A DNA stretch of 64,000 nt from NCBI RefSeq assembly GCF_041381155.1, contig NC_091139.1:5766383-5830382 (forward strand), written 5' to 3'. Shown here in pieces: positions 33,652 to 60,353 of the stretch. The notes under the pieces were generated by a model that ran no database searches, was not told the DNA's origin, and worked only from the letters and a program-made list of their open reading frames with translations. The translations under genes were made by a program, and so were the position numbers. The stretch comes from Argopecten irradians (taxonomy: Eukaryota; Mollusca; Bivalvia; Pectinida; Pectinidae). Every line of letters starts with the position of its first letter. The first letter of the stretch is position 1.

Positions 33652-33720
33652 TATATAAAGCGCGTGAATTGACACACGTGCGCTCAGTCTATACACGTAC
33701 ATACACACCCGGCAGTTGTC
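33652..33720 (+). promoter_or_regulatory. Candidate core promoter: TATA box, E-box and initiator
   Basis: TATATAAAG at 33652-33660, the E-box CACGTG at 33675-33680, and TCAGTC at 33684-33689, which matches the metazoan initiator (A+1 at 33686). TATAAA starts 32 bp before that A. AGTTG at 33714-33718 resembles a downstream promoter element but is one base off the ideal place. GC content rises here relative to the flanks. The order and spacing are those of a focused RNA polymerase II promoter, on the plus strand, inside the presumed PATJ intron. A donor-like CAG/gtatat lies near 33769. Confidence 0.4.
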
Positions 33721-34929: not shown

Positions 34930-35420
34930 ACGTACATACACATTGGCACACGTGCTGCACTAGCTTGCCAATCTCTTTGGGTCTCCCGAATCCTAGTTAT
35001 CCCCGAGGGTTCTCCGAATCATCAGCCTCGGAATCATCCTCTGAGTCACAGGATCCGGGTCCAGAATCAACACCTGATGATCACAGCATGACCCCGCGGT
35101 CTTGTTACAGACATCAACAGTGTGTGATTGTGAATGGTGTCGGGGTGTAGGATATGTATATACAGGCTGTAAAGCCTAGGGACTTTAGTCCAGAGGAACT
35201 ATTCCTGGACGCGGCTATCCGCGTGTTTGGAATCGGAGTTTGGCACCTCAAGTGAGGACATTGACAGTTGTGACACCGGCGGGCTTAATGCAGGAGGTGT
35301 ACCAGAGGTTCAGCCCTCCAACCTGTCAACACTGTGTCGTACATAGGGAAGGCTTTCTCTGACGAGCCTGACACACCAATTAACACAGAAGAAGGATCAA
35401 TGTTTTAATATCAAACAGCA
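34930..35420 (+). other. Coding-like GC-richer stretch of unknown origin
   Basis: Short overlapping plus-strand frames have acidic, Ser-rich composition unlike the surrounding DNA: 34965-35147 contains SESSASESSSESQDPGPES, and further frames near 35225-35340 and 35344-35406 contain TSSEDIDSCDTGG and SDEPDTPINTEEG. No single frame covers the stretch. It may be exons of a nested or alternative transcript starting near 33686, or a degraded host gene fragment. I do not recognise a family. Confidence 0.3.
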
Positions 35421-36115
35421 TTATTGAAAAAAGTAATGAAACCGCTGGATATTTAACCCTGAGGATGCTAATGGATCTCATTTTCAGGAAGTAGTGCTAC
35501 GTTTTGACATTTTCAATTTTGTAAGAAATGGTAGAATTAGGGCATGATTTTGTGGGTCAACCCTAATGTTGTTTAGGATGTAATGTAATGACACTACTGC
35601 CATATCAAAGAAAATTAACACATATCTACAGGACAATTGGTAAGATTCTACAATACAAAAATATTTTTGAAAACTACTTGCTCAAAAGTCCAGTATGTAA
35701 GTGTTTGACAACTTCAATTAGAAAAAAATTCCGGGAGTAATGACTTTCTGGAATAATTGCTTCAGGTATCGTATAAGCTCCTGTCGTCGCTAATGAAGAA
35801 CAGCATCCTGTAGCGATACATTGGGGCTGATGAGTAACACTCCATCGTGTTGACGACCTTACGATGTCATACCGGTATATATAATTATTTAACACTCGGC
35901 GGAGGAGCTGAAAACCGTATTAGATACCTGTATGTAAAATAACACAGGAAAGATAATAAATTTTGGATGAAGACGAGTTATACTCTGATGGACTTATAGC
36001 TAGATATATGTAGTGACCATCGCAGCCAAATAATTACTGTGTGGTTCAAGTGTATTAACATTGATCTAACATGTTCTACAACTGAGTGAAAAATATTTTA
36101 ATCCTTTCCAAGGAC
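35421..36115. other. Unique sequence left of the tandem duplication
   Basis: No coding signal. The segment ends at the left breakpoint, CCAAGGACATTGGG, where the duplicated unit begins. Confidence 0.4.
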
Positions 36116-37360
36116 ATTGGGTGGAATTAACGAAACACATTAGGGCCATTTGGAGGACAGTGGAAGTGGACTAGGCTTGTACACCCTGTCCAGCGAGAGA
36201 GACTTCCTGTCTGTGACTAGTGGCTCGGAGAATTCTATATAGGTATCAATATATATATAGACTGTCCCCCAATACAGCAGTAGGCTAATATTGAAGTGCT
36301 AATTAATTAGTGTCATGACCCAACTCTCCGTTGACTAGTTTTTCTGGTAATCAGACGAAACCTAATATGTCATAGAGTATCAGTATCGGACTACAACCAC
36401 CAATAGGGGATATATACTCATTATAGTGTAACGGGATCAAAACAACGCTCCTCTAGAATGTCTACATTAAAAACATGGGACTCAACAAAACTGCATTTCT
36501 TGGATGATTATTATAGCATGACGTCTTTGATTCTCAACTGTGTGTAAATATCAAATTCCATTGGTAACTGGCTTTTCTTGACTATTGTATGCACAGAAGT
36601 GAAGGATCATATTATAATGGAGAAATTCTGAAATAGCAAGAGATCCTGTAGTGAAGAGATTATCAGAACAAGCCAACTGGCGTGTGGAATCCATCAACCT
36701 TTACCAGTGTAAGGTTGCCTGACCCGTAATGCTTAGCTTTATACCTGCAATGGACTTACAGAATTCTTGTCAAAGGGCTCAATGCACAATCCAGTCTTTG
36801 AAGATTTCTCATTAGTAATATTTGTTGCAGAATCTGGTCCAACAGTATATATATATATCTAATGAAAGAAGTATTCCATGCACAAAGCAATCGTAAAAGT
36901 TAAGAAGAAATTGAATACATGCCACAAGTGGTATGTTCTTGTGTAATAGGTACATATATGAGCATGAAGTTAGTGCATTATAGACTTAGCATCAGTTTAT
37001 TAGACGAGACAATTTTAACGCTAAAATCTTTAAAACAGTGAAATAGTTCTTTTGGGATACGTGATTACATGTGCGTGTATGGATGTTAAAGTTTCATTGG
37101 AAAGCCCTACCTAGGGGGTAAGACGAGGAAATACAGCTCTGTGTACCTGTAGGGGTGGAAGCCATGCAACTTATATGAAGACCTGCATTAATAATGATCA
37201 TGTAAGTTCTTGGTGTTGTGTCCTGATAGCCAGTGGCAAACATTAGGTCTCAAGATAATTAAGTCTCTACATGAAAACCAGGCAGGCTGCAGGAGAAAGT
37301 GTCTGTCAGTCAAGTGAAACATGTCTGTCACTCAGATTAAATTGGCAAAATTTAGTAGCG

Positions 37361-38347
37361 TGTCTGTCTGTGTGTCTGATCTAACTGGTGAGGTATACCA
37401 TGTCTGTCTGTGTGTCTGATGTAACTGGGGAGGTGTACCATGTCTGTCTGTGTGTCTGATGTAACTGGGGAGGTGTACCATGTCTGTCTGTGTGTCTGAT
37501 GTAACAAGGGAGGTGTACCATGTTTGTGTGTCTGATGTAACTAAGAAGATGTACTGTGTCTGTCTGTGTGTGTGATCTAACTTTGGAGGTGTACCATGTG
37601 TGTCTGATGTAACTGGGGAGGTGTATCATGTCTGTCTGTGTTCTGCTCTAACTGGGGAGGTGTTCCATGTCTGTCTGTGTGTCTGATGTAACTGGGGAGG
37701 TGTACCATGTCTGTCTGTGTGTCTGATGTAACTGGGAGGTGTACCAGGTCCTAACTGGGGAGGTGACCATTCTGTCTGTGTCTGATGTGGGAGGTGTACC
37801 ATGTCTGTCTGTTTGTTAACTGGGAGGTGTACTGTCTGTCTGTGTTCTTTACTGGGATGTGTGTCTGTCTGTGTTCTGTTACTGGGGAGACTCTGTCTGT
37901 TGTAACTGGAGGTGTGTGTCTGCTCTAACTGGGGAGGTGTACATGTCTGTCTGTGTGTCTGATTAACTGAGGTGTACCTGTCTGTCTGTGTGTCTGATTA
38001 ACTGGGAGGTGTAATGTTGATTTAACTGGGGAGGTGTACTGTGTCTGTCTGTGTGTCTGATCTAACTGAGGTGTACTAACTGAAGTAACTCGGGGAGGTG
38101 TACTGTCTGTCTGTCTGTGTGTCTGATTTCCTGTCTGGTTTACTGGGGAGGTGTACTGTGTCTGTCTGTGTGTCTGATCTAAATTTAGAGGTGTACCATG
38201 TCTGTCTGTGTGTCTGATGTAACTGGGGAGGTGTACTGTGTCTGTCTGTGTGTCTGATCTAACTTTGGAGGTGTACTATGTCTGTGTGTCTGAAGTAACT
38301 CGGGAGGTGTACCATGTCTGTCTGTGTTTCTGATGTAAATGTGGACG
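37361..38347. repeat. 40-bp minisatellite, copy A
   Basis: Unit about 40 bp built from TGTCTGTCTGTGTGTCTGAT and GTAACTGGGGAGGTGTACCA. Clean units flank a ragged middle (about 37735-38160) with many missing bases. The array is about 990 bp, nearly twice that in copy B. Confidence 0.85.
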
Positions 38348-38565
38348 TATGCATTATGCCTTGACTTGCATATCATTAAGCTTTCTGCTTCTGTGACAAT
38401 TCATATACCTAATCAAAAATGAAAATGTTCATAACTTTAAATGTTAATTATATGATTGTAATAATTATATAGTATTTACATATGGAATTTGCAATATTTT
38501 ATTGAAAAGCAAAAGAAGAAAAAATATCGTAAATATGATAAGCTACACTGCATTTAAAAAAGTAA

Positions 38566-38800
38566 CAGGCTGCGGTGCCCAAGTGGTTTTAAAAGATGTC
38601 CAGACATATTATTTATTACATGCCCTCCACCTTTGGGTTATGAGTTCAAATTCCATGTGGGACAGTTGCTAGGTACTGACCATGGCCACTGGTCTGAGGT
38701 TTATATTTGGATTTTCCGGTTTTCCTCCAACATCAAAGCTAGGACGTCCTTGCATGACCCTGACTGTTAATAGTACCTAAAACTAAAACAAAGCAAACCA
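38566..38800 (+). repeat. tRNA-derived SINE, copy A
   Basis: The head GGCTGCGGTGCCCAAGTGG (A-box-like) and GAGTTCAAATTCC (B-box-like, 38643) lead to a body with GGTTTTCCTCCAACATC and the tail GCATGACCCTGACTGTTAAT, then an A-rich end. The body and tail phrases are shared with the SINEs at 61497 and 44763, so these form one superfamily. Confidence 0.65.
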
Positions 38801-39267
38801 AATTCAAAAGCAATTCATTTTCCTGGTGGATCGTTTTTTCACTGAACAGTCTGCCACCAGGCAAGGAATCTTGTGATAACTCCATTCAAGGTTATTGCTT
38901 TTGATATCACTTTATCTCTGAATGGGTAGATATGATCAATATGGATTGTTTTCTTTGTTTTCCTGTGTTATTTAAAAGCCATTCAGAGTAGAGGTGTAAC
39001 ATGTGTTTATGTACGGTACATTTATGAAATGTGTGTCGGACATTAGTGGAACAGGTTTTTGTATGATCAGCCTTAGTCACACAGACAAAGACAGTATTGA
39101 TTCATCCCTAGGAGTAATTGAACTGGTCTGGAGTTTTGTATTTAGTCAATGACGTGTTAATTGAATTTATGGTATTATGTGAATTTTAAACATAAAAATG
39201 ATCTTCATTTTATGTACAATGGCTTAAATACAAGAAATAATAAGCATTGTCCTTAATTAATATCCCT

Positions 39268-39474
39268 TACCGTATTTGACCCAATAAGCGCCCAGGGCGT
39301 TTAAAAATTTGATAAAAACGTAATGAAAAGATACTTATAAGACAAAGTTATTGCAAAGCTTTACAGTTTTGTGTAGTTTTGGTCTTTATTTATGCCTGGG
39401 CAATTGAAATCAAGGCCTCAAAAAGGGTGAGGGGCGCTTATAAGGACATGGGCGCTAATTGGGTCAAATACGGA
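39268..39474. mobile_element. MITE of the TTTGACCC family, copy A
   Basis: Ends TACCGTATTTGACCCAATAA and TTGGGTCAAATACGGA; interior with GTTTTGTGTAGTTTTGGTCT as in the copies at 20791 and 32300. Confidence 0.7.
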
Positions 39475-40203
39475 AATTACAAATTAAATATTTAATTCAC
39501 TTGTGTTATAATTGAACGGGTGCATAAGTCAATCAATATACTTTAGTGACCATTGGTGTTCATAACTTATAAGACATAAAATGAAAAATGAAGCAATTTA
39601 TGTATATGTCCTACACCAAAATTATTACTTGTATGTGATAAACATAATACATAGTATGGTATTCTTAGTAGACCTACTTAGATTAAATATCAAGGAGAGA
39701 ATAAAATAATGAATTTGCACATTTGCAAAAATGCATGTGAACCAATTTATTTCCCCATTTACAATGTATCTTTGTTAATCTACTGGAAGCACTGATGTAA
39801 TGACATATTAGAAATACAGATTAATGCTTTCATTTTTGGTATGCCCCGTTTAATGAAGATTAATGGTATCTATACATGTGTAGTTCAATCAGGAAGGGAA
39901 CTAGTACAATACAAAATAACAATGTAATAGAACAATAGACCATTAGTATGATATATATGATTTCTGATTAGCTGTACCATAATAGATGTAAATTAGGGAC
40001 ATGGTGGTTCGCTGTGGCTTCCTCCACACATCCAAAGTAATTAACAGTATTAATTGATATAATGACATATTGAAGTAAAGTGCAGTCACACAATACAGTA
40101 GAATAGTAGATCAAGTACAATAGATATATACATTCTGATATAATTGGCCATAAATGTTATAATAATCAAGGACATGATGATTTACAGTGGCAAAGTATTC
40201 AGT

Positions 40204-41586
40204 CCATGTAATTACACATGTACATCCTCCACACACTCTGTCTGTGTAATTACACATGTACATCCTCCACACACTCTGTCTGTGTAATTACACATGTACA
40301 TCCTCCACACACTCTGTCTGTGTAATCACATATGTACATCCTCCACACACTCTGTCTGTGTAATTACACATGTACATCCTCCACACACTCTGTCTGTGTA
40401 ATTACACATGTACATCCTCCACACACTCCGTCTGTGTAATTACACATGTACATCCTCCACACACTCTGTCTGTGTAATTACACATGTACATCCTCCACAC
40501 ACTCTGTCTGTGTAATTACACATGTACATCCTCCACACACTCTGTCTGTGTAATTACACATGTACATCCTCCACACACTCTGTTTGTGTAATTACACATG
40601 TACATCCTCCACACACTCTGTCTGTGTAATTATACATGTACATCCTCCACACACTCCGTCTCTGTAATTACTATGTACATTCTCCCACACACTCTGTCTG
40701 TGTAATTACACATGTACATCCTCCACACATTCTGTCTGTGTATTTACACATGAACATCCTCCACACACTCCATCTGTAATTACACATGCACATCCTCCAC
40801 ACACTCCGTCTGTGTAATTACACATGTACATCCTCCACACACTCCGTCTGTGTAATTACACATGTACATCCTCCACACACTCCGTCTGTGTAATTACACA
40901 TGTACATCCTCCACACACTCTGTCTGTGTAATTACACATGTACATCCTCCACACACTCCGTCTGTGTAATTACACATGTACATCCTCCACACACTCCGTC
41001 TGTGTAATTACACATGTACATCCTCCACACACTCTGTCTGTGTAATTACACATGTACATCCTCCACACACTCCGTCTGTGTAATTACACATGTACATCCT
41101 CCACACACTCCGTCTGTGTAATTACACATGTACATCCTCCACACACTCCGTCTGTGTAATTACACATGTACATCCTCCACACACTCTGTCTGTGTAATTA
41201 CACATGTACATCCTCCACACACTCCGTCTGTGTAATTACACATGTACATCCTCCACACACTCCGTCTGTGTAATTACACATGTACATCCTCCACACACTC
41301 TGTCTGTGTAATTACACATGTACATCCTCCACACACTCCGTCTGTGTAATTACACATGTACATCCTCCACACACTCCGTCTGTGTAATTACACATGTACA
41401 TCCTCCACACACTCTGTCTGTGTAATTACACATGTACATCCTCCACACACTCCGTCTGTGTAATTACACATGTACATCCTCCACACACTCCGTCTGTGTA
41501 ATTAAACATGTACATCCTCCACACAATCCGTCTGTGTAATTACACATGTACATCCTCCACACACTCCATCCATGTAATTACTCATT
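40204..41586. repeat. 38-bp minisatellite, copy A (about 36 units)
   Basis: Unit of 38 bp: GTGTAATTACACATGTACAT followed by CCTCCACACACTCtGTCT. GTGTAATTACAC is a perfect 12-bp palindrome. Units come in two types, CTCTG (T) and CTCCG (C); from about 40800 onward they alternate mostly as T-C-C, a 114-bp higher-order period. No spacers, so it is not a CRISPR array. Confidence 0.9.
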
Positions 41587-42954
41587 CATGTACTAAAGTG
41601 ATGTATATATCGAATGCTGATCAAATGAGGTGTATTTCCATTACCCCCTCTTGATATTTGTAACACATCGTTAATTGAAATCTGCGGGGAGATTCTAGGC
41701 ACAAACGTTGATAATATCATTCATATTATTTTGTTAATAACTGCCATTGTTTCATGTCATCTATGATACAAATACAAATCTGCAGTTGTTTTGTACACAT
41801 CTCAATTCGATCCAACATTTTTCATTTACCGTTCTAAATATAAGTTTAGGTATTTTCCATTTTTATATTGCTACTTGACTGTTTTATGGAACAGGCACCT
41901 GTTTATCTTCAGTGTACGTTGATATTGATCCTGATATTGGGAATATAATGTATTATACGTACATCATAAATCAAACTCCTATGTTCTATGGTTAGAGGAT
42001 GGAAACCTGTTATTAGTTCACTTACAATAACTGTATTTTCGATAACAAATGGTCCAGGACGGCGATGGAAATATCAAATAATATGTAGCTTTTAACATTA
42101 GTGTGGAGAATCATGATAACTTGCAAGCACTTGTACATGTATTACTTAATATAGTGTTGTTATGTTTCTGATAACATTTAGAGTACTCTTGGATCCGCAC
42201 AAAAAATATAAAATTTATAAGTGCCATTCAAGACTTAAACTACAGTAACTTGGATATACCCAATATGAATAACTGATGTACTATAGACTTGATGTATAAC
42301 TTGGAGATACCTTATGTTCTGAAGGTCAGTTCTTAACAGTAATTCAGAGACTGATGGGTTAGGAGGGGTTTGGATGGGGTTTGGATGGATAGTGTTACCA
42401 ATGTCTGTTCTATTGCATTCAACATCTTATATTTCTTGTCATTGGCGGAGAGGGGGAATGAATGGAAGGGGATAGGATCGGGGTGGACATGTACATGTCT
42501 TGTCCCATATTGTGTCCTAGCTGTTAACGTCCTCTTGTATCTCACCCTAGCCATTTCTACCCCCTTACTATAACAAGGCTAAATAAATATCGTAATTATA
42601 AATGAATACGAATGATTTCTTTCTCTATTCTTCACATTTAAGGGAAATAAGGTCATTAATTGTAAGGATAATTTCTCTAGCTTCATATAGGTATGCTAAA
42701 TCCTTTCTCAGAGTTAAACCCAAAGAACTGACTTACTGGTATTTAACTTTGAGACTGTAAGGGAAAGCAAATGGCTTATAGGCAGTCGTCCTCCATTTTT
42801 ATTGTTGCATTTCCTAACTAGCTCATTCATCCAAGAAGTTATACATGTTGAACTGTTTGGTGTCAAGTCTCAATTGGATATAGCTAACAGGCAGATTTCT
42901 TGGATTATCTCCCCTTACAAATTATAAGATCATGTCTGTCCTACTTGTCTTATA
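41587..42954. other. Unique part of copy A, no gene seen
   Basis: Colinear with 53653-55047 in copy B. The frames near 42333-42573 lie on both strands over the same bases and recur in copy B only because of the duplication; no family resemblance. Confidence 0.4.
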
Positions 42955-43075
42955 TCAGGGGGTTGGGGAGTGGTTAAGATGTCCCAGTATATTACCACAA
43001 GCCCTCCTCCACCTCTGGGATGTGGGCTCAAAAACCAGGTGGTTCAGTTGCCAGGTACTACACCATTATGTCATA
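42955..43075 (+). repeat. SINE head fragment, copy A
   Basis: GGGGAGTGGTTAAGATGTCC then CACCTCTGGGATGTGGGCTC and CAGTTGCCAGGTACT match the head of the SINE at 61497; the body is missing. It is followed by CAAAGATGGCCGCCA. Confidence 0.5.
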
Positions 43076-43389
43076 AAGCATCAAAGATGGCCGCCATAGA
43101 ATCTGCTGATGATTGCAATTTCTTGGAGAAATTTTTCAGTGCTTTTTTTGTGCAATTGTTTTGCATTCATTTAGGATTACCCATGTTTAAGCCTATTACT
43201 GCTTTTAACATAAAATGTGTACCAGACTATATTTACCATATAGTTAATGCTTTCGAGAATCGTTTTCAATAAACAAATTTCTTTTGTCTGTTGTAAATAA
43301 GCCAAAAAATCTCTTTTAAGAAATATATAAGATTTAAATTAATTAAGATATTTTTCTTAGGCTGTTCCCTGGTGTAACTTTAACTTCAA

Positions 43390-43475
43390 CTCTTCCACCC
43401 CTGAAATTTCATAATGGACTGGTCTGGTCTTTGATTTAGAAGAGTCTAAATGTGTGTTCAGGGGTGTATGAGTTA
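43390..43475. mobile_element. CACCCCTGAA-family MITE, copy A
   Basis: CACCCCTGAAATTTCATAAT at the left and TTCAGGGGTGTATGAGTT at the right; same family as 4016-4100. Confidence 0.5.
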
Positions 43476-44376
43476 AATAACCCTGGCTCTTAATATTGAT
43501 ATAGAGATGTAAAGCACAAACAAACAAGCATGAAGATTTGTCTTTCAGTCACCTGATTCCAGTGTAAATGTCTACATATGATAAGTGGATTCCATCAAAG
43601 CTATTTCAGAATGGAAATATAGCACTCTGTTAGGTATAGGCTTTCAAACCAGGTAAAGTGTCCCGAAATAGTCGCATTCCATCATGATCAAGTGATTAAC
43701 GACTAATGAGGTGATAAATCAGGCCATACTGTTATGTAATTATAGAATGATGAACGACATCACATTGACAAATTTCACTATCACTCACAATGCCAATTAT
43801 TATCGCCATGGTCCTGCGACGACGTCATGTCTGTATTTTGTCATTACAAACTTGATGCTTCTTTTGTAAGTCGTTTCCGTGGTAACAGGCTACAATTTTT
43901 TTTCTTGGCGAATTTGTTTATTATGCTTGGTGTCTCACTGAAGGTTTATGGAATTGCAAGAGTGGTTTGTAAATTTGGAGTTAAACATCTCCTGGATGTA
44001 TTTATCCTATTAGTCATCATATAGAAATTAAAAAAAAAAAAAGATAATTCTTTCATGAATAGTAATGAAAGCTTTAATACAGTTGCAGATTTATTGAAAT
44101 TTCACTGCACATGACATTGATGGAACTGTCAGTATATAACAGTCTGTAGGCTTGCGAATCTTAGCCAACTAATTCAGTGATATGCAAATTTCTGTTTCCC
44201 TATATATAATCAAGGGTTACATTAGAGCTGATTGGCCTACGGGGATATCAGATTGTTGATCTTGCCTTTCTTTGATAAATTCTCATGAATAATAATTCTG
44301 TTTTCTTCCTTGTCTTTTCATTATTGTTAACATGTAGCTTGTTTTATGTTTTGAATGCTTCAGAAACATTATTTAA

Positions 44377-44518
44377 GGATTAATTTTGAAGAGATTTTTT
44401 ATGTTATGGAGATAACACAAAAATCTGAGTGCACTCTAAGTAAACCACAAAGAGAGTACACTCATATTTTTGTGTTAATTATATCTCCATAACATAAAAA
44501 ATCTATTCAAATTAATGC
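44377..44518. mobile_element. Foldback element with arms of about 65 bp, copy A
   Basis: GGATTAATTTTGAAGAGATT pairs with ATCTATTCAAATTAATGC at the base, TTTTTATGTTATGGAGATAA with the ATCTCCATAACATAAAAA arm, and GAGTGCACTCT with AGAGTACACTC near the loop. Confidence 0.65.
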
Positions 44519-44762
44519 TTATAATTCAGTTTACTAAAAAAAGATTTCCTCTTGATCAGTATTTGAAATTCATTTTGGGACTCCTTTTGTCTTTGAAATC
44601 ATTATGCCGTTGTCTCAGCCAATCAGAAGCGACGTTACAAACGGTGATGCCATATTTACCGTTATGGGCTGACAAAGTAAATTTTTAAACCAATGAAAAT
44701 ACTCGCTGATTTTGATTTTTATAATAGCCAATTCTCCTATATGTAGAAATAGGATTATCACA

Positions 44763-44995
44763 ATGGCCTTAGTGGTCAGGATCTTCCAACAATCAACAAA
44801 TTATTGTCACAAAGCCCTTCACCTCAGTGTTACAAATTTGTCAAACACACAAGGGATAGTTTCCAGTTACTGACCATATGTGGGTGGTTTTTCTCTTGGT
44901 ACTCTGGCTTTCCTTTGTCTTCTATACCCCAGGCATGTCCTATAATGACCCAGGCAGTTAAAGACTTAAAACACAAACAAATCCATTTGATATAT
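44763..44995 (+). repeat. Worn tRNA-derived SINE, copy A
   Basis: TGGCCTTAGTGGTCAGGATC, CTCAGTGTTACAAATTTGTC, CCAGTTACTGACCATATG and ATAATGACCCAGGCAGTTAA follow the order of the SINE at 38566, with an A-rich end. Confidence 0.5.
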
Positions 44996-45049
44996 AACTC
45001 TACCAATGTGATCTCTCGATAATTTTGAGACTGACCTTTCATGCCTTTT

Positions 45050-46860
45050 GAGGAGTTTTCTAATGCAACATTAATTTGAGCAATTTTCTATGCATTATCT
45101 TTGAATACCGTGTGAAGATCTTGCATGTTTTTAGTTTTAAAAAATGACATCTGCAATTACACTAATAAAATTTGTATTCGGTTGGGATTAAGTGAATAGT
45201 CGGGCAAAGAAAACCAGTCTAAATGCGTTCATTGGCCTTACCAAAAGTTCTCACATATTAAACGACGGTCAAGTTCTGTTATGTTTCCCAGTTCTGACCA
45301 TTGAAAGAAAGAAAAGTTGAAAGCATTGAAAGCGAGGCTGCGTGGAAATGTAACCACAGACATAGTCAGTCGGGAGTACGTTTAGGTTTCCTATACATTA
45401 AAATTAATTATTTTCTACGTACCACAGATTTTGACGAGAAAGTTTATTTTTCTATTCCATAAGAAATAATTCTTGTACATTCACAGTGCCATTTTTACTG
45501 TCTTTAAGCCATCCTTGCCCGACTGATCACCTTTAAAATGTCCACATGTCCAGTGGTCATGATTGCCAACTGAAATAATTACAGTCCCTTCACATACACT
45601 AGAGTTTCTACCCTCTGAATATCATGGTATGATTCTCACTTTCAAAGAATGGCATCAGCAATTACATCGAAAAATGTAAATGATGGTTTAATTGGCACGG
45701 ATATGTATTAGGGCAATCTGGTGGTTCAACACCGAAAAACCCTTTTACAGAATTTAGCGCTGCATGTACATGAATTAATGATTTAAAGACTAAGGGCGAA
45801 AAGTGCTAAAATAAAACTACTGCCAGAATAAGTATGTTTTCGGTAATTTCTGTGTATTGGCGTTCATCAGTTACGACATGGTACAATGACATCGACTATA
45901 AAACTTAATGAAGCTGATTAGGGTTGACGACAGGGTTATAAACACTAGCTGACTCCGTTCACACAAACCATTATGTTTTATGTTGTAAGTCATGCCAGAT
46001 ACATACAGAAGCCACCAATAATGGTGCTATTTATAGAGCAAGTGGGAGTGAATTAGTACCAACAAATGTGTTACAAAGTGAAATTATCCCAACTAAAAAT
46101 AATCAATATTGACTACAGAGACTGGGCGTTCGTGCGGGTCAGGGTCAAATGTTTAACTCGTTGCGATTCTGATTTAATTACGACTGGAGCAGAGGTTTAT
46201 TTTAAGGAATAAAAGTAGAAAAAGAGATCAATGTTATTACCCAAGGACTTATAAACTTAAGGTGATTGTATTTTATGGCATTTGTGCCATTATATATCTC
46301 TCTTAATACCATGATGACAAAGCTGCAATTTTCTTTTTACGCGAAACAGAGAAATCTGAAGCCTAAGATAATTTAACAAGCTTATAAAAATACAAACCAG
46401 CGTAACCCTTTTTCAGGTTATGATTTTTTATGATGCAATATTTCATTGAAGTGATAACATTATAAAAGAAAATTATCTATTGAACCATATCTCTAAAGAA
46501 TAAACATTGTAACGATAATTCAATTTAATTGATTAGTTAGAAAATTTTGATATTGCATCACAAAGTTTTATGCAATTTTGATAGAATTATTAGAGTAGAA
46601 TAATTTGTGTCTTAAGAAATAAAAGTGTCAGGACTTGACATTCTGTGAACACTGAATTCCCTGGCTGCCATATTTAGAACACATCCTTTCTTCTATAAAT
46701 TGAGTCTCGGAATCTCTCAGCCGCTTTGTCCATCTAGTTTACGACCTTAGTGAAAGGTTACAATAATACATGTACCGTTATAGAATCCAGAGGACAGTTA
46801 GCTATTAGTGCTGTGGCTTATTTTATATTGGTATCCATGACACATGACCTGTCAGCCGGA
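45050..46860. other. Unique part of copy A, no gene seen
   Basis: Colinear with 57190-58980 in copy B. No open frame, splice pattern or repeat of note. Confidence 0.4.
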
Positions 46861-47061
46861 TACCGTATTAGACCCTATAAGCATCCAGGGAGTTTAAAAA
46901 ATTGAAAAAATGAAAAGGTGCTAATAAGACAAATAAGTGCAAAGCAAAGTGCAAACCTATACCGTTTTGATAGTTTTTAGTGTTTATATATGGCCGCACA
47001 ATCCTCAAAAGTGGGAAGGGCGCTAATAGGGACATGGGCGCTTATTGGGTGGAATATGGTA
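46861..47061. mobile_element. MITE of the TTTGACCC family (variant), copy A
   Basis: Ends TACCGTATTAGACCCTATAA and TTATTGGGTGGAATATGGTA; the right end text recurs about 200 bp on (near 47225-47275), pointing to a local duplication of the end plus flank. Confidence 0.6.
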
Positions 47062-49689
47062 AGAATATTCAAAAGCATAACGACAAACAATGATGTGTTT
47101 TGTGCCATCATCATGAAATATTGAGCCATTATTTATGGTCCTTCTCCCTTTGTTAACTGTGATCTTATTAAGAAATGATGAGGTCACACTGACATTTTCA
47201 TGTATTACAAATTACAATAGGATAAACAGGGACATATGGGTGCTATATTTTTGGAGGTTGGAATACGGTGTATTTTTCAAAAATGCATACCACAAACAGC
47301 CGGCACACTAATTTGTAAGTAGCCATCATCATATGAAATAATGAGCATTAATGTTATGGTCCTACTTAGTTATAACTTGTATTTTACCAAGTATTCAAAT
47401 TACAATATTTCTTATATGCCTTCATCATGAATATAAGGGCAATAGGTTTAAGCAACATGTTAGATACTGAAGCTCCTGTTACCGAATTTCATATAGAGAG
47501 ATGGGGGTCATTTTTGTCCTTATAAGAACAGCGTCAGTAGTAGAGAAGCCTGAAGAAGGAATTTAATCCCCTTTTCTCCTCACTTATTACTTTATCTGTT
47601 TTGCAGTATAACACGGAGGCCCTACCAGTTATTTCTGTTTACCTGTGTTTTTATCTTATTAATGGCTAAGCAAAATAATGGGCAGGTCTGCATATTTAAG
47701 GAATCTCATACAAACAATAAATATTGGTGGTCCTGTATTTTTCTGGCCAATTGAGTGTATACTAATATTTCAATTATGAGCAATCCGAGTACAGATTGAA
47801 ATATGGAATCGAGATGTGATTTTTCAATTAAGCCTGAGGCAAGTTTTAATGGTAAATGTTCAAAAGAATAACTGCTGACTAAGGATGTCTATCTTCTCCT
47901 TGTAAATAATGTATGATAGTATTTATGGATCCAGCACTAAAGGATTTCTAACAAAAGAGAAAATTTTTTTTTTTTTTACTTTTCTAAAACCGATACGTTT
48001 CTTTGAAAATAATGACAGATAAAGTGTATTCTTTTTATCCATGCACAGAACACATTATTAATTTGAAATTGAACGTTGAGGGACACAACAAATATGATTG
48101 GTTACAATAGTTTTAACATGATACAGTATTCCTGAAAAATAGGATAAGTAAGTTAGCCACTGAACTTGATCTTAGTTAATAGAACCCACCCATGATATTA
48201 ATGTAGGCAATTTAATACTGTTGTCTAAAATATAAGAAAGGAGGAGGGGTAAAGAAAAAAATAAAAAAAAAAGAAAAAAATCCTACTATCCATAAAAACA
48301 ACTGACATAGAACATTCTACTATGTGGCTGGCCAAGGAACTCTTAGGCATCTCTGTTATAAGCATTGGACATTAGAAAACTAGTGCATAAATCGTCATCA
48401 AGGTTATAAATAATCTGATCCAAACATGCAATAATTCATCAAAATTGGGTGGAATTAACGAAACACATTAGGGCCATTTGGAGGACAGTGGGATTGGACT
48501 AGGCTTGTACACCCTGTCCAGCGAGAGAGACTTCCTGTCTGTGACTAGTGGCTTGGAGAATTCTATATAGGTATCAATATATATATAGACTGTCCCCCGA
48601 TATAGCAGTAGGCTAATATTGAAGTGCTAATTAATTAGTGTCATGACCCAACTCTCCGTTGACTAGTTTTTCTGGTAATCAGACGAAACCTAATATGTCG
48701 TAGAGTATCAGTATCGGACTACAACCACCAATAGGGGATATATACTCATTATAGTGTAACGGGATCAAAACAACGCTCCTCTAGAATGTCTACATTAAAA
48801 ACATGGGACTCAACAAAACTGCATTTCTTGGATGATTATAATAGCATGACGTCTTTGATTCTCAACTGTGTATAAATATCAACTTTCCATTGGTAACTGG
48901 CTTTTCTTGACTATTGTATGCACAGAAGTGAAGGATCATATTATAATGGAGAAATTCTGAAATAGCAAGAGATCCTGTAGTGAAGAGATTATCAGAACAA
49001 ACCAATTGGCGTGTGGAATCCATCAACCTTTACCAGTGTAAGGTTGCCTGACCCGTAATGCTTAGCTTTATACCTGCAATGGACTTACAGAATTCTTGTC
49101 AAAGGGCTCAATGCACAATCCAGTCTTTGAAGATTTCTCATTAGTAATATTTGTTGCAGAATCTGGTCCAACAGTATATATATATATCTAATGAAAGAAG
49201 TATTCAATGCACATAGCAATCGTAAAAGTTAAGAAGAAATTGAATACATGCAACAAGTGGTATGTTCTTGTGTAATAGGTACATATATGAGCATGAAGTT
49301 AGTGCATTATAGACTTAGCATCAGTTTATTAGACGAGACAATTTTAATGCTAACATCTTTAAAACAGTGAAATAGTTCTTTTGGGATACGTGATTACATG
49401 TGCGTGTATGGATGTTAAAGTTTCATTGGAAAGCCCTACCTAGGGGGTAAGACGAGGAAATACAGCTCTGTGTACCTGTAGGGGTGGAAGCCATGCAACT
49501 TATATGAAGACCTGCATTAATAATGATCATGTAAGTTCTTGGTGTTGTGTCCTGATAGCCAGTGGCAAACATTAGGTCTCAAGATAATTAAGTCTCTACA
49601 TGAAAACCAGGCAGGCTGCAGGAGAAAGTGTCTGTCAGTCAAGTGAAACATGTCTGTCACTCAGATTAAATTGGCAAAATTTAGTAGCG

Positions 49690-50236
49690 TGTCTGTCTGT
49701 GTGTCTGATGTAACTGGTGAGGTATACCATGTCTGTCTGTGTGTCTGATGTAACTGAGGAGGTGTACCCTGTCTGTCTGTGTGTCTGATGTAACTGGGGA
49801 GGTGTACCCTGTCTGTTCTGTGTGTCTGATGTAACTGGGGAGGTGTACCATGTCTGTCTGTGTTCTGCTCTAACTGGGAAGGTGTACCATGTCTGTCTGT
49901 GGTCTGCTCTAACTGGTGAGGGTATACCATGTCTGTCTGTGTGTCTGATGTAACTGGGGAGGTCCACCATGTCTGTCTGTGTGTCTGATGTAACTTGGGA
50001 GGTGTACCATGTCTGTCTGTGTGTCTGATGTAACTTGGGAGGTGTACTGTGTCTGTCTGTGTGTCTGATTTAACTTGGGAGGTGTACTGTGTCTGTCTGT
50101 GTGTCTGATGTAACTGGGGAGGTGTACTGTGTCTGTCTGTGTGTCTGATCTAACTTTGGAGGTGTACTATGTCTGTGTGTCTGAAGTAACTCAGGAGGTG
50201 TACCATGTCTGTCTGTGTTTCTGATGTAAATGTGGA
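49690..50236. repeat. 40-bp minisatellite, copy B
   Basis: Same unit as 37361-38347 but only about 550 bp, mostly clean units. Confidence 0.85.
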
Positions 50237-50453
50237 CGTATGCATTATGCCTTGACATGCAGATCATTAGGCTTTCTGCTTCTGTGACAATTCATATACC
50301 CAATCAAAAATGAAAATGTTCATAACTTTAAATGTTAATTATATGATTGTAATAATTAAATAGTATTTACATATGGAATTTGCAATATTTTATTGAAAAG
50401 CAAAAGAAGAAAAAATATCGTAAATATGATAAGCTACACTGCATTTAAAAAAG

Positions 50454-50695
50454 TAACAGGCTGCGGTGCCCAAGTGGTTTTAAAAGATGTCCAGACATAT
50501 TATTTATTACATGCCCTCCACCTTTGGGTTATGAGTTCAAATTCCATGTGGGACAGTTGCTAGGTACTGACCATGGCCACTGGTCTGAGGTTTATAATAG
50601 GATTTTCCGGTTTTCCTCCAAATCAAAGCTAGGACGTCCTTGCATGACCCTGACTGTTAATAGTACCTAAAACTAAAACAAAGCAAACCAAATTC
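50454..50695 (+). repeat. tRNA-derived SINE, copy B
   Basis: Duplicate of the SINE at 38566-38800 with a few base differences. Confidence 0.65.
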
Positions 50696-51150
50696 AAAAG
50701 CAATTCATTTTCCTGGTGGATCGTTTTTTCACTGAACAGTCTGCCACCAGGCAAGGAATCTTGTGATAACTCCATTCAAGGTTATTGCTTTTGATATCAC
50801 TTTACCTCTGAATGGGTAGATATGATCAATATGGATTGTTTTCTTTGTTTTCCTGTGTTATTTAAAAGCCATTCAGAGTAGAGGTGTAACATGTGTTTAT
50901 GTACGGTACATTTATGAAATGTGTGTCGGACATTAGTGGAACAGGTTTTTGTATGAGCAGTCACACAGACAAAGACAGTATTGATTCATCCCTAAGAGTA
51001 ATTGAACTGGTCTGGAGTTTTGTATTTAGTCAATGACGTGTTAATTGAATTTATGGTATTATGTGAATTTTAAACATAAAATGATCTTCATTTTATGTAC
51101 AATGGCTTAAATACAAGAAATAATAAGCATTGTCCTTAATTAATATCCCT

Positions 51151-51357
51151 TACCGTATTTGACCCAATAAGCGCCCAGGGCGTTTAAAAATTTGATAAAA
51201 ACGTAATGAAAAGATACTTATAAGACAATGTTATTGCAAAGCTTTACAGTTTTGTGTAGTTTTGGTCTTTATTTATGCCTGGGCAATTGAAATCAAGGCC
51301 TCAAAAAGGGTGAGGGGCGCTTATAAGGACATGGGCGCTAATTGAGTTAATACGGAA
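51151..51357. mobile_element. MITE of the TTTGACCC family, copy B
   Basis: Duplicate of 39268-39474. The right end has changed to TTGAGTTAATACGG. Confidence 0.65.
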
Positions 51358-52081
51358 ATTACAAATTAAATATTTAATTCACTTGTGTTATAATTGAACG
51401 GGTGCATAAGTCAATCAATATACTTTAGTGACCATTGGTGTTTATAACTTTATAAGACATAAAATGAAAAATGAAGCAATTTTTGTATTTGTCCTACACT
51501 AAAATTATTACTTGTAAGTGATAAACATAATAAATAGTATGGTATTCTTAGTAGACCTACTTAGATTAAATATCAAGGAGAGAATAAAATTATGAATTTG
51601 CACAGTTGCAAAAATGCATGTGAACCAATTTATTTCCCCATTTACAATGTATCTTTGTTAATCTACTGGTAGCACTAATGTAATGACATATTAGAAATAC
51701 AGATTAATGCTTTCATTTTTGATATGCCCCGTTTAATGAAGATTAATGGTATCTTTGTAGTTCAATCAGAAAGGAAACTAGTACAATACAAAATAACAAT
51801 GTAATAGAACAATAGACCATTAGTATGATATATATGATTTCTGATTAGCTGTACCATAATAGATGTAAATTAGGGACATGGTGGTTCGCTGTGGCTTCCT
51901 CCACACATCCAAAGTAATTAACAGTATTAATTGATATAATGACATATTGAAGTAAAGTGCAGTCACACAATACAGTAGAATAGTAGGTCAAGTACAATAG
52001 ATATATACATTCTGATATAATTGGCCATAAATGTTATAATAATCGGGGACATGATGATTTACAGTGGCAAAGTATTCAGTC

Positions 52082-53652
52082 CATGTAATTACACATGTAC
52101 ATCCTCCACACACTCTGTCTGTGTAATTACACATGTACATCCTCCACACACTCTGTCTATGTGTAATTACACATGTAATTGCACATGTACATCCTACATC
52201 CTCCACACACTCTGTCTGTCTGTAATTACACATGTACATCCTCCACACACTCCGTCTGTGTAATTACACATGTACATCCTCCACACACTCTGTCTGTGTA
52301 ATTACACATGTACATCCTCCACACACTCTGTCTGTGTAATTACACATGTACATCCTCCACACACTCCGTCTGTGTAATTACACATGTACATCCTCCACAC
52401 ACTCTGTCTGTGTAATTACACATGTACATCCTCCACACACTCTGTCTGTGTATTACACTCTGTCTGTGTAATTACACATGTACATCCTCCACCACTCTCA
52501 TTACACATGTACATCCTCCACACACTCTGTCTGTGTAATTACACATGTACATCCTCCACACACTCTGTCTGTGTAATTACACATGTACATCCTCCACACA
52601 CTCTGTCTGTGTAATTACACATGTACATCCTCCACACACTCTGTCTGTGTAATTACACATGTACATCCTCCACACACTCTGTCTGTGTAATTACACATGT
52701 ACATCCTCCACACATCTCTTTACACATTCATCCACACACGTCTGTGTAATTACACATGTACATCCTCCACACACTCCGTCTGTGTAATTACCATGTACAT
52801 CCTCCACACACTCCGTCTGTGTAATTACACATGTACATCCTCCACACACTCGTCTGTGTAATTACACATGACATCCTCACACACTCTCTGTGTAAATACA
52901 CATACATCCTCCACACACTCCGTCGTGTAATTACACATGTACATCCTCCCACACACTGTCACACATGTACATCCTCCACACTGTGTAATTACACATGTGA
53001 CATCCTCCACACACTCTGTCTGTGTAATTACACATGTACATCCTCCACACACTCCGTCTGTGTAATTACACATGTACATCCTCCACACACCGTCTGTGTA
53101 ATTACACATGTACATCCTCACACACCTGTCTGTGTAATCCTACTCACATGTACATCCTCCACACACTCCGTCTGTGTAATTACACATGTACATCCTCCAC
53201 ACACTCCGTCTGTGTAATTACACATGTACATCCTCCACACACTCCGTCTGTGTAATTACACATGTCTGTGTAATTACACATGTACATCCTCCACACACAC
53301 TCCGTCTGTGTAATTACACAGCCACACACTTTGTCTGTGTAATTACACATGTACATCCTCCACACACTCTGTCTGTGTAATTACACATGTACATCCTCCA
53401 CACACTCCGTCTGTGTAATTACACATGTACATCCTCCACACACTCTGTCTGTGTAATTACACATGTACATCCTCCACACACTCTGTCTGTGTAATTACAC
53501 ATGTACATCCTCCACACACTCTGTCTGTGTAATTACACATGTACATCCTCCACACACTCCTCCGTCTGTGTAATTAAACATGTACATCCTCCACACAATC
53601 CGTCTGTGTAATTACACATGTACATCCTCCACACACTCCATCCATGTAATTA
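52082..53652. repeat. 38-bp minisatellite, copy B (about 41 units)
   Basis: Same unit as in copy A. The middle (about 52440-53330) has many shortened units and loses the T-C-C order. The open frames reading CNYTCTSSTHSVCVI on the plus strand are the unit in translation. Confidence 0.88.
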
Positions 53653-55047
53653 CTCATTCATGTACTAAAGTGATGTATATATCGAATGCTGATCAAATGA
53701 GGTGTATTTCCATTACCCCCTCTTGATATTTGTAACACATCGTTAATTGAAATCTGCTGGGAGATACTAGGCACAAACGTTGATAATATCATTCATATTA
53801 TTTTGTTAATAACTGCCATTGTTTGATGTCATCTATGCTAGAAATACAAATCTGCAGTTGTTTTGTACACATCTCAATTCGATCCAACATTTTTCATTTA
53901 CCTTTCTAAATATAAGTTTAGGTATTTTCCATTTTTATATTGCTACTTGACTGTTTTATGGAACAGGCACCTGTTTATCTTCAGTGTACGTTGATATTGA
54001 TCCTGATGTTGGGAATACAATGTATTATACGTACATCATAAATCAAACTCCTATGTTCTATGGTTAGAGGATGGAAACCTGTTATTAGTTCACTTACAAT
54101 AACTGTATTTTCGATAACAGATGGTCCAGGACGGCGATGGAAATATCAAATAATATGTAGCTTTTAACATTAGTGTGGAGAATCATGATTTTACGTTTAC
54201 TTGTTTTTAGTACATGCAAGCACTTGTACATGTATTACTTAATATAGTGTTGTTATGTTTCTGATAACATTTAGAGTACTCTTGGATCCGCACAAAAAAT
54301 ATAAAATTTATAAGTGCCATTCAAGACTTAAACTACAGTAACTTGGATATACCCAATATGAATAACTGATGTACTATAGACTTGATGTATAACTTGGAGA
54401 TACCTTATGTTCTGAAGGTCAGTTCTTAACAGTAATTCAGAGACTGATGGGTTAGGAGGGGTTTGGATGGGGTTTGGATGGATAGTGTTACCAATGTCTG
54501 TTCTATTGCATTCAACATCTTATATTTCTTGTCATTGGCGGAGAGGGGGAATGAATGGAAGGGGATAGAATCGGGGTGGACATGTACATGTCTTGTCCCA
54601 TATTGTATCCTAGCTGTAACGTCCTCTTGTATCTCACCCTAGCCATTTCTACCCCCTTACTATAACAAGGCTAAATAAATATCGTAATTATAAATGAATA
54701 CGAATGATTTCTTTTTCTATTCTTCACATTTAAGGGAAATAAGGTCATTAATTGTAAGGATAATTTCTCTAGCTTCATATAGGTATGCTAAATCCTTTCT
54801 CAGAGTTAAACCCAAAGAACTGACTTACTGGTATTTAACTTTGAGACTGTAAGGGAAAGCAAATGGCTTATAGGCAGTCGTCCTCCATTTTTATTGTTGC
54901 ATTTCCTAACTAGCTCATTCATCCAAGAAGTTATACATGTTGAACTGTTTGGTGTCAAGTCTCAATTGGATATAGCTAACAGGCAGATTTCTTGGATTAT
55001 CTCCCCTTACAAATTATAAGATCATGTCTGTCCTACTTGTCTTATAT

Positions 55048-55165
55048 CAGGGGGTTGGGGAGTGGTTAAGATGTCCCAGTATATTACCACAAGCCCTCCT
55101 CCACCTCTGGGATGTGGGCTCAAAAACCAGGTGGTTCAGTTGCCAGGTACTACACCATTATGTCA
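55048..55165 (+). repeat. SINE head fragment, copy B
   Basis: Duplicate of 42955-43075. Confidence 0.5.
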
Positions 55166-55194
55166 TAAAGCATCAAAGATGGCCACCATAGAAT

Positions 55195-55305
55195 CTGCTG
55201 ATGATTGCAATTTCTTGGAGAAATTTTTCAGTGCTTTTTTTTGTGCATGCTGATGATTGCAATTTCTTGGAGAAATTTTCTAGTGCTTTTTTTTGTGCAA
55301 TTGTT
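55195..55305 (+). repeat. Short tandem duplication private to copy B
   Basis: GCTGATGATTGCAATTTCTT with the following GAGAAATTTT and poly-T/GTGCA text occurs twice in a row here (55197 and 55248) but once in copy A (43101). Confidence 0.8.
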
Positions 55306-55526
55306 TTGCATTCATTTAGGATTACCCATGTTTAAGCCTATTACTGCTTTGAACATAAAATGTGTACCAGACTATATTTACCATATAGTTAATGCTTTTG
55401 AGAATCGTTTTCAATAAACAAATTTCTTTTGTCTGTTGTGAATAAGCCAAAAAATCTCTTTTAAGAAATATATAAGATTTTGATTAATTAAGATATTTTC
55501 TTAGACTGTTCCCTGGTGTAACTTTA

Positions 55527-55615
55527 ACTTTATCTCATTTACCCCTGAAATTTCATGATGGACTGTTCTAGTCTTTGATTTAGAAGAGCCTAAGTGTGTG
55601 TTCAGGGGTGTATGA
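55527..55615. mobile_element. CACCCCTGAA-family MITE, copy B
   Basis: Duplicate of 43390-43475; the left end here reads TTACCCCTGAAATTTCATGA. Confidence 0.5.
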
Positions 55616-56520
55616 GTTAAATAACCCTGGCTGTTAATATTGATATAGAGATGTAAAGCACAAACAAACAAGCATGTAGATTTGTCTTTCAGTCACCTGA
55701 TTCCAGTGTAAATGTCTACATATGATAAGTGGATTCCATCAAAGCTATTTCAGAATGGAAATATAGCACTCTGTTAGGTATAGGCTTTCAAACCAGGTAA
55801 AGTGTCCCGAAATAGTCACATTCCATCATGATCAAGTGATTAACGACTAATGAGGTGATAAATCAGGCCATACTGTTATGTAATTATAGAATGATGAACG
55901 ACATCACATTGACAAATTTCACTATCACTCACAATGCCAATTATTATCGCCATGGTCCTGCGACGACGTCATGTCTGTATTTTGTCATTACAAACTTGAT
56001 GCTTCTTTTGTAAGTCGTTTCCGTGGTAACAGGCTACAATTTTTTTTCTTGGCGAATTTGTTTATTATGCTTGGTGTCTCACTGAAGGTTTATGGAATTG
56101 CAAGAGTGGTTTGTAAATTTGGAGTTAAACATCTCCTGGATGTATTTATCCTATTAGTCATCATATAGAAATTAAAAAAAAAAAAAGATAATTCTTTCAT
56201 GAATAGTAATGAAAGCTTTAATACAGTTGCAGATTTATTGAAATTTCACTGCACATGACATTGATGGAACTGTCAGTATATAACAGTCTGTAGGCTTGCG
56301 AATCTTAGCCAACTAATTCAGTGATATGCAAATTTCTGTTTCCCTATATATAATCAAGGGTTACATTAGAGCTGATTGGCCTACGGGGATAACAGATTGT
56401 TGATCTGCCCTTTCTTTGATAAATTCTCATGAATAATAATTCTGTTTTCTTCCTTGTCTTTTCATTATTGTTAACATGTAGCTTGTTTTATGTTTTGAAT
56501 GCTTCAGAAACATTATTTAA

Positions 56521-56661
56521 GGATTAATTTGAAGAGATTTTTTATGTTATGGAGATAACACAAAAATCTGAGTGCACTCTAAGTAAACCACAAAGAGAGT
56601 ACACCCATATTTTTGTTTTAATTATATCTCCATAACATTAAAAATCTATTCAAATTAATCC
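56521..56661. mobile_element. Foldback element, copy B
   Basis: Duplicate of 44377-44518. The base of the stem, GGATTAAT against ATTAATCC, pairs perfectly here while copy A has one mismatch. Confidence 0.6.
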
Positions 56662-56902
56662 TTATAATTCAGTTTACTAAAAAAAGATTTCCTCTTGATC
56701 AGTATTTGAAATTCATTTTGGGACTCTTTTGTCTTTGAAATCATTATGCCGTTGTCTCAGCCAATCAGAAGCGACGTTACAAACGGTGATGCCATATTTA
56801 CCGTTATGGGCTGACAAAGTAAATTTTTAAACCAATGAAAATACTCGCTGATTTTGATTTTTATAATAGCCAATTCTCCTATATGTAGAAATAGGTTATC
56901 AC

Positions 56903-57135
56903 AATGGCCTTAGTGGTCAGGATCTTCCAACAATCAACAAATTATTGTCACGAAGCCCTTCACTTCAGTGTTACAAATTTGTCAAACACACATGGGATAG
57001 TTTCCAGTTACTGACCATATGTGGGTGGTTTTTCTCTTGGTACTCTGGCTTTCCTTCGTCTTCTATACCCCAGGCATGTCCTATAATGACCCAGGCAGTT
57101 AAAGACTTAAAACACAAACAAATCCATTTGATATA
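56903..57135 (+). repeat. Worn tRNA-derived SINE, copy B
   Basis: Duplicate of 44763-44995. Confidence 0.5.
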
Positions 57136-58980
57136 TAACTCTACCATGTGATCTCTCGATAATTTTGAGACTGACCTTTCATGCCTTTTGAGGAGTTTTC
57201 TAATGCACATTAATTTGAGCAATTTTCTATGCATTATCTTTGAATACCGTGTGAAGATCTTGCATGTTTTTAGTTTTAAAAAATGACATCTGCAATTACA
57301 CTATAAAATTTGTATTGGTTGGGATTAAAGTGAATAGTCGGGCAAAGAAAACCAGTCTAAATGCGTTCATTGGCCTTCCAAAAGTTCTCACATATTAATA
57401 CGACGGTCAAGTTCTGCTTATGTTTCCCAGTTCTGACCATTGAAAGAAAGAAAAGTTGAAAGCATTGAAAGCGAGGCTGCGTGGAAATGTAACCACAGAC
57501 ATAGTCAGTCGGGAGGACGTTTTAGGTTTCCTATACTTTAAATTAATTTCTACGTACGCAGACAGATTTTGACGAGAAAGTTTATTTTTCTATTCCATAA
57601 GAAATAATTCTTGATACATTCACACCATTTTTACTGTCTTTAGCCATCCTTGCCCGACTGTTCACTTTAAATGTCCACATGTTCCAGTGGTCATGATGCC
57701 AACTGAAATAATTACAGTCCCTTCAATACACTAGAGTTTCTACCTCTGAATATCATGTATGGATTCTCACTTTCAAAGAATGGCATCAGCAATTACATCG
57801 AAAAATGTAAATGATGGTTTATTGGCACGGATATGTATTAGGGCAATCTGGTGGTTCAACACCGGAAAAACCCTTTTACAGAATTTAGCGCTGCATGTAC
57901 ATGAATCAATGATTTAAAGACAGGGCGAAAAGTGCTAAAATAAAACTACTGCCAGAATAAGTATGTTTTCGGTAATTTCTGTGTATTGGCGTTCATCAGT
58001 TACGACATGGTACAATGACATCGACTATAAAACTTAATGAAGCTGATTAGGGTTGACGACAGGGTTATAAACACTAGCTGACTCCGTTCACACAAACCAT
58101 TATGTTTTATGTTGTAAGTCATGCCAGATACATACAGAAGCCACCAATAATGGTGCTATTTATAGAGCAAGTGGGAGTGAATTAGTACCAACAAATGTGT
58201 TACAAATGAAATTATCCCAAGTAAAATAATCAATATTGACTACAGAGACTGGGCGTTCGTGCGGGTCAGGGTCAAATGTTTAACTCGTTGCGATTCTGAT
58301 TTAATTACGACTGGAGCAGAGGTTTATTTTAAGGAATAAAAGTAGAAAAAGAGATCAATGTTATTACCCAAGGACTTATAAACTTCAGGTGATTGTATTT
58401 TATGGCATTTGTGCCATTATATATCTCTTAATACCATGATGACAAAGCTGCAATTTTCTTTTTACGCGAAACAGAGAAATCTGAAGCCTAAGATAATTTA
58501 CCAAGCTTATAAAAATGCAAACCAGCGTAACCCTTTTTCAGGTTATGATTTCTTATGACATATTTCATTGAAGTAATAACATTATAAAAGAAAATTATCT
58601 ATTGAACCATATCTCTAAAGAATAAACATTGTAACGATAATTCAATTTAATTGATTAGTTAGAAAATTTTGATATTGCATCACGAAGTTTATGCAATTTT
58701 GATAGAATTATTACGAGTAGAATAATTTTGTGCTTAAGAAATTAAAATGTCAGGACTTGACATTCTGTGATACTGAATTCCCTGGCTGCCATATTTAGAT
58801 CACATCCTTTCTTCTATAAATTGAGTCTCGGAATCTCTCAGCCGCTTTGTCCATCTAGTTTATGACCTTAGTGAAAGGTTACAATAATACATGTACCGTT
58901 ATAGAATCCAGAGGACAGTTAGCTATTAGTGCTGTAGCTTATGTTATATTGGTATCCATGACACATGACCTGTCAGCTGG

Positions 58981-59181
58981 TTACCTTATTAGACCCTATA
59001 AGCATCCAGGGAGTTTAAAAAATTGAAAAAATGAAAAGGTGCTAATAAGTCAAATAAGTGCAAAGCAAAGTGCAAACCTATACCGTTTTGATAGTTTTAG
59101 TGTTTATATATGGCCGCACAATCCTCAAAAGTGGGAGGGGCGCTAATAGGGACATGGGCGCTTATTGAGTGGAATATGGTA
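58981..59181. mobile_element. MITE of the TTTGACCC family (variant), copy B
   Basis: Duplicate of 46861-47061. The right end and about 110 bp of flank recur at 59335-59465 (GGGTGGAATACGGTAGTATT), a clearer version of the local duplication seen in copy A. Confidence 0.6.
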
Positions 59182-60214
59182 GTATTTTCAAATGCTTAAC
59201 ACAACAATAATGTGTTTTGTGCCATCATCATGAAATATTGAGCATTATTTATGGTCCTTTCTTTGTTAACTGTGTCTTATTAAGAATTGATGAGGTCACA
59301 ATGACATTTTCATGTTTCAAATTACAATAATAACAGGGACATGGGTGCTTATTGGGTGGAATACGGTAGTATTTTCAAATGCTTAACACAACAATAATGT
59401 GTTTTGTGCCATCATCATGAAATATTGAGCATTATGTATGGTCCTTTCTTTGTTAACTGTATTTTCATGTTTCAAATTACAATATTTCTTTTTATGCCTT
59501 CATCATGATATAAGGGGCATGGTTTTAGCTTCATGTTAGATAATGAAGTCCTGTTACGATTTCATATAGAGATGGGGTCATTTTTGTCTTAGACAGTCAG
59601 AGCCTGAAGATGATTTTCTCCTTTTCTGTTGCATTAAAACGGAGGCCTACCTGTTATTCTGTTACCTGTGTTTTTATCCTATTATGTAAGCTAATTATGG
59701 AGGCTGCATATATGGTATCTCAACAAAAATTTTGGTGGACTGTAATTTTGCCAATTGTCTAATATTTCTATTGAGCAATCCGAGTCAGATTGAATATGGA
59801 TCGAGATGTGATTTTTTCAATTGCCTGAGGCAAGTTTAATGGAAATGTTAAAAGATATCTGTGACTAAGTTGTTTCTTGAAAATAATGTGATAGTATTTA
59901 TGATCAGCATAATGTTTCTAACAAAGAAAATTTTTACTTTTCTAACTGATAAGTTTCTTTGAAAATAATGCCAGTAAAGGTTTCTTTCCATGCACATTAC
60001 ATCATTTATATTTGAATTTGAAACGTTGAGACACAATTTGATTGGTTACTATAGTTTAATTGTTACATTTCTGAAAATGGATAAGTAAAGTTAGCCAGTT
60101 ATCTTGATCTGTTTAATAGACCACCATGATATTAATGTAGGCAATTTATTACTTTGTATAATATTAGAAAGGGAGGGGGGAAAGAAAAAAAAATCCTACT
60201 TTCCATTAATATCT

Positions 60215-60265
60215 GACATTGATCATTCTTTGGTGGCTGCCAGGATCTCTTTGGAATCTCTTGTT
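60215..60265 (+). mobile_element. Worn pearl-like tail (family 3 type)
   Basis: TGATCATTCTTTGGTGGC, CCAGGATCTCTTTGG and AATCTCTTGTT resemble the family 3 tail at 11270-11317. The corresponding place in copy A (about 48310-48355) is more eroded. Confidence 0.5.
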
Positions 60266-60353
60266 AGACATTTGTGACATTAGGAAATCTTGTGCTATAT
60301 ATCGTCATCAAGGTTTTTATGATCTGTCCAAAAATGTCAATAATTCATCAAAG

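Follow-up and report, generated by a model that had tools for sequence, protein, structure and literature searches.

Gene context and layout of the repeat

The window, meaning the whole 64,000-bp stretch analysed here (C6:5766383-5830382), was compared with itself, and pieces of it with the assembly from which it comes, which comprises 845,758,899 bases in 1508 contigs. Matches there extend to multi-megabase positions on C1-C16, suggestive of a chromosome number of 16. On the plus strand of the window lies an open frame (26542-27108; coding end at 27104, directly before a GT donor at 27105) that encodes an L27_2 domain (40.5 bits against a Pfam cut-off of 27) and the first half of a PDZ domain, for which the best match among PDB sequences is "Multiple PDZ domain protein". 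The second half of the PDZ domain is found from 64924, just beyond the window, after an AG acceptor, with the frame continuing across the splice; its Pfam score (PDZ_6, 19.9 bits) is under the cut-off of 27. The domain that is split in this way is presumably the first PDZ of an MPDZ/PATJ-like gene. The predicted intron runs from 27105 on the plus strand through the end of the window (64000) to 64923 and measures 37.8 kb as assembled, or 25.5-25.9 kb minus one copy of the repeat described below.

The repeat is the one large direct repeat that a self-comparison of the whole window revealed. Copy A (36116-48443, 12,328 bp) and copy B (48444-60352) align with each other from end to end, have the same (plus) orientation and are directly adjacent, and both are within this one GT-AG intron, as judged from the predicted gene structure. 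Self-BLAST and MAFFT alignment thus bear out the preliminary description of the locus, which was of a direct head-to-tail duplication of about 12 kb without a spacer. Its limits for copy A and for the start of copy B stand as well, but it placed the end of copy B at 60353 (for a length of 11,910 bp), and exact matching showed that the right flank already starts with this base. Ns are absent from the junction between the copies and from the whole window, as well as from the surrounding 314 kb. No Pfam family (E ≤ 0.001) was found in five of the six frames of copy A (three plus and two minus), and its three plus frames had no match among PDB sequences (E ≤ 0.1). Pfam families were likewise absent from the three plus frames of 27100-35900 and from all six frames of 60300-64000. 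At the other end of the window, a candidate tRNA at 5852-5923 on the plus strand scored 36.7 bits with the Rfam model, whose gathering score is 29.

The 1-kb flanks on the left (35116-36115) and on the right (60354-61353) have no other match in the window at an E-value of 1e-4. When four pieces of the unit were searched against the genome, the matches listed included, beyond A and B themselves, just short interspersed repeats (in three of the searches, 40 of 4293, 224 and 3049 candidates, respectively, were scored), and both flanks had no further long match among those listed (40 candidates scored per search). The left flank region does contain a repeat of about 460 bp (33498-33959) with copies of up to 99% identity on contigs C9 and C14 among the matches listed, which suggests an interspersed element with recent activity. 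Minisatellites are dense across all 314 kb around the junction, and large arrays flank the window on either side, at C6:5640391-5649559 (about 278 units of 33 bp) and C6:5859961-5869074 (about 9.1 kb, with unit lengths of 30 to 90 bp).

Differences between the two copies

The unit includes three quiet blocks (36116-37360, 38346-40206 and 41586-44999 in copy A), in which the copies differ by 91 mismatches in 6,500 aligned bases (1.4%), with a transition to transversion ratio of 47:44 and 14 indel events. In the MAFFT alignment, copy B also carries 21 and 53 bases more than A at two places. Two minisatellites differ in length between the copies. The 40-bp array has 24.8 units in A (37361-38345, plus strand) and 13.8 in B (49690-50236), while the 38-bp array has 36.3 units in A (40207-41585) and 2.4 + 39.0 in B (52084-53657, plus strand). 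These differences in the body of the copies, including the 1.4% divergence, look like real variants rather than read errors.

The arrays also differ in how cleanly they read. The 40-bp array of A and the 38-bp array of B are rich in indels (109 deleted and 23 inserted bases in the former, 127 and 16 in the latter), whereas their counterparts, the 40-bp array of B (6 deleted, 2 inserted) and the 38-bp array of A (3 deleted, 1 inserted), are nearly free of them. Since each copy thus holds one indel-rich and one nearly indel-free minisatellite, the quality of the consensus is uneven in both.

The preliminary description had the copies nearly identical over most of their length. This holds for the quiet blocks, but not for the end of the unit, where 47305-48443 and 59391-60352 share only 74.7% identity. 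In bins of 100 bases, the noise in copy A appears as an isolated, indel-rich patch at about 45.0-45.7 kb (45000-45700, plus strand). The stretch at 45.8-46.9 kb is quieter. The noise then rises at 47.0-47.2 kb and leads into an insertion-rich end from 47200 to 48443 on the same strand, in which each full bin contains 7 to 42 inserted bases and the last 44 bases contain 2. The profile thus has a patch, a lull and, near 47.2 kb, a step, and does not climb smoothly. Around the patch (45000-46100), MAFFT placed 15 events of extra sequence in A against 7 in B, with 3 transitions and 15 transversions.

The noisy end is strongly one-sided. An alignment with linear gap costs (47300-48443) counted 883 matching and 61 substituted positions, with A carrying 200 additional bases and lacking 19, and MAFFT (47301-48443) gave 38 events extra in A (186 bases) against 5 extra in B (6 bases), with 225 mismatches in 957 aligned bases. 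The two methods divide the tail differently between gaps and mismatches, but both make it one-sided, and a sign test on the MAFFT events yields 2.5e-7. The transition to transversion ratio of the tail (83:142) also differs from that of the quiet blocks (p = 0.017), which is weak evidence when taken alone. Ordinary mutation does not produce such a pattern, with numerous small insertions confined to one copy and few substitutions. Insertions do dominate among PacBio read errors, according to a passage in PMC6879543. The noise of the minisatellites, which is rich in deletions, is unlike that of the tail. The tail noise reaches position 48443, the last base of A, and B is clean from 48444 onwards: its first 1,245 bases differ from those of A by 16 mismatches and a single indel.

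Assignment of the changes by repeat relatives

Pieces of interspersed repeats within the unit have relatives elsewhere in the genome that tell which of the two copies was altered. One such repeat lies in the patch (45190-45536 in A, plus strand, corresponding to 57328-57669 in B). Against two good relatives within the C6 sequence examined, the version in A required 10 gap openings in each case (18 and 12 gap bases) and reached 88.4% and 87.7% identity, compared to no gap openings at all and 94.7% and 93.0% identity for the version in B. With a third, weak relative, both copies show gaps. A second test was provided by a repeat piece in the tail (60188-60281 in B, plus strand), which matched all six relatives that were fetched (L008-L013) at 80-84% identity, while its counterpart in A (48231-48385) retrieved none of the six at an E-value of 0.01.

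Control repeats outside these regions behaved differently. For a repeat located before the patch (44370-44706), the two best relatives gave 8 and 9 gap openings with A and 6 and 7 with B, so that A is just slightly worse, and for the block at 38346-40206, all six of the listed comparisons slightly favour A over B. Relatives of the segments at about 46.86-46.98 kb and 47.00-47.06 kb showed no excess of gaps in A. Because the repeat relatives match B clearly better, the changes in the patch and the tail are assigned to A, and by this comparison of sequences they are shown to be private to that copy in these two regions, not throughout its last 3.2 kb.

The control repeat at 44370-44706 (about 337 bp) is dispersed in the genome; it also aligns in inverted orientation, both with itself and with its relatives, in the manner of a fold-back element. 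In the tail of B, an 85-bp piece (59194-59278) recurs about 187 bp further on (59381-59465) with 96.5% identity; the counterpart of this piece in A is poorer.

The junction and the origin of the tandem

A tandem duplication mediated by microhomology has direct, adjacent copies with sharp ends and an uninterrupted microhomology at the junction. The copies at this locus are direct, head-to-tail and sharp-ended, and no spacer separates them. However, matching outward from the junction (48443/48444) extends for 0 bp on both sides. The preliminary description had proposed a microhomology of 4 bp, and the three breakpoint strings that it quoted are indeed present in the sequence, but the TTGG that they share lies one base in from the junction, behind an A/G mismatch. 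Among random pairs of breakpoints in the window, drawn with the tandem arrays unmasked, 2.7 to 5.9% have a 4-mer in common at matching offsets when a distance of 1 to 5 bases is allowed. The microhomology count has no deciding force alone, since one miscalled base in the noisy end could conceal a true TTGG. With a strict microhomology of 0 bp and error-like sequence in A right up to the junction, the young, microhomology-mediated duplication that had been proposed is left without support.

The reading that we consider highly probable is that two overlapping contigs, each representing one allele, were concatenated without being merged, to produce a false tandem in the intron. The first contig would comprise the left flank and one allele of the 12-kb intronic stretch, its end resting on very few raw long reads. 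The second would begin within the other allele of this stretch and continue into the right flank. Allelic differences, minisatellites of unequal length and the noisy end are plausible reasons why the overlap would have gone unrecognised; the contigs would have been placed next to each other without Ns. The apparent left breakpoint would then be the start of the second contig and the apparent right breakpoint the end of the first. This reading is favoured because the insertion-rich noise that is private to A halts exactly at the junction, where B restarts clean; the uneven consensus of the minisatellites and the prevalence of insertions among PacBio errors also speak for it. We infer that the two copies represent different alleles and that the junction joins two contigs, through some step in the assembly. 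The preliminary description had mentioned two haplotypes joined in series as its other possibility, which agrees with the A-private noise and the clean restart of B and would make the copies allelic.

Several observations count against a join of two contigs. The segments at about 46.86-46.98 kb and 47.00-47.06 kb lack a gap excess in A, the noise of the minisatellites is rich in deletions, and there are no Ns, so that a real join would have been closed without the usual scaffold gap. The shape of the noise, a patch and a step, also counts against it, because a patch of raw-read sequence over a true junction would give the same shape. In that case, a true young tandem duplication, or one allele of a polymorphic one, would underlie the locus, its copies having been assembled separately and the end of A closed by gap filling or with one unpolished read, and the noise would be a defect of quality over a true junction. 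The onset of the noise near 47.2 kb, stepwise rather than graded, and the lack of Ns at the junction are consistent with such a duplication, the 1.4% difference in the body suits it as well as it suits alleles, and its microhomology might be masked by one wrong base in the noisy tail of A. However, it needs a raw-read patch that ends exactly at the junction, which a contig end provides for free, and normal coverage over a true junction should presumably have allowed a clean consensus; the strict microhomology of 0 bp does not favour it either. Overall, a true young duplication is unlikely, with a chance that is small but not negligible. If it were real, the locus would hold a very recent and perhaps still polymorphic 12-kb tandem in the PDZ-splitting intron, with two minisatellites already changed in length and only the junction badly sequenced, a picture that we regard as rather doubtful and that, being still intronic, would be of modest interest.

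An old tandem duplication, in which the 25% divergence of the tail reflects the true age and the remainder was homogenised by gene conversion, would account for the sharp contrast between the tail and the blocks at 1.4%. However, ageing should affect both copies and do so mainly by substitution, whereas the changes belong to A wherever outside relatives can tell, and the tail has 200 inserted bases against 61 substituted ones, which makes this explanation highly improbable. The region is rich in repeats, as would suit non-allelic homologous recombination (NAHR) between repeats flanking the unit, but the 1-kb flanks are without another match in the window at the threshold given above and neither side of the junction shows any identity (0 bp); NAHR was rejected as exceedingly improbable.

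The concatenation of two allelic contigs has its closest parallel in heterotype false duplications, whose "flanking contigs" form is given in the legend to Extended Data Fig. 5 of PMC8081667; joins through unsupported stretches are mentioned in PMC9516828. The order in this form is the same as here: left flank, copy 1, copy 2 and right flank on one scaffold. Order and orientation are observed directly at this locus, and the two copies would stand for the two haplotypes. The likeness may extend to a difference between the copies at a level that alleles could show (1.4% in the quiet blocks) and to about 1.2 kb of error-like sequence that ends at the putative join, but there is no N gap between the copies here. 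Judged from these sequence features, the locus is likely a member of the "flanking contigs" form. Homotype false duplications at contig boundaries, as described in PMC8081667, are similar in having tandem copies of long-read length with unequal consensus quality. In contrast, the present copies differ beyond read error, having unequal minisatellites, 21 and 53 extra bases, and 91 substitutions in the quiet blocks at a transition to transversion ratio of 47:44, and a homotype origin, in which the differences would be errors only, does not fit them.

Tandem copies that are nearly identical and sharp-ended are easily mistaken for young duplications. Two warning signs can be read from sequence alone: insertion-rich noise on one side that ends at the junction, and repeat relatives that assign this noise to one copy.

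Another direct pair is located on the same contig, outside the window, at C6:5656284-5659139 and C6:5665146-5668014 (L022-L023 and L023-L024). Its two members share 97.1% identity over 2,888 alignment columns with about 6 kb between them, and may be a transposable element or a further duplication, whether genuine or artefactual.
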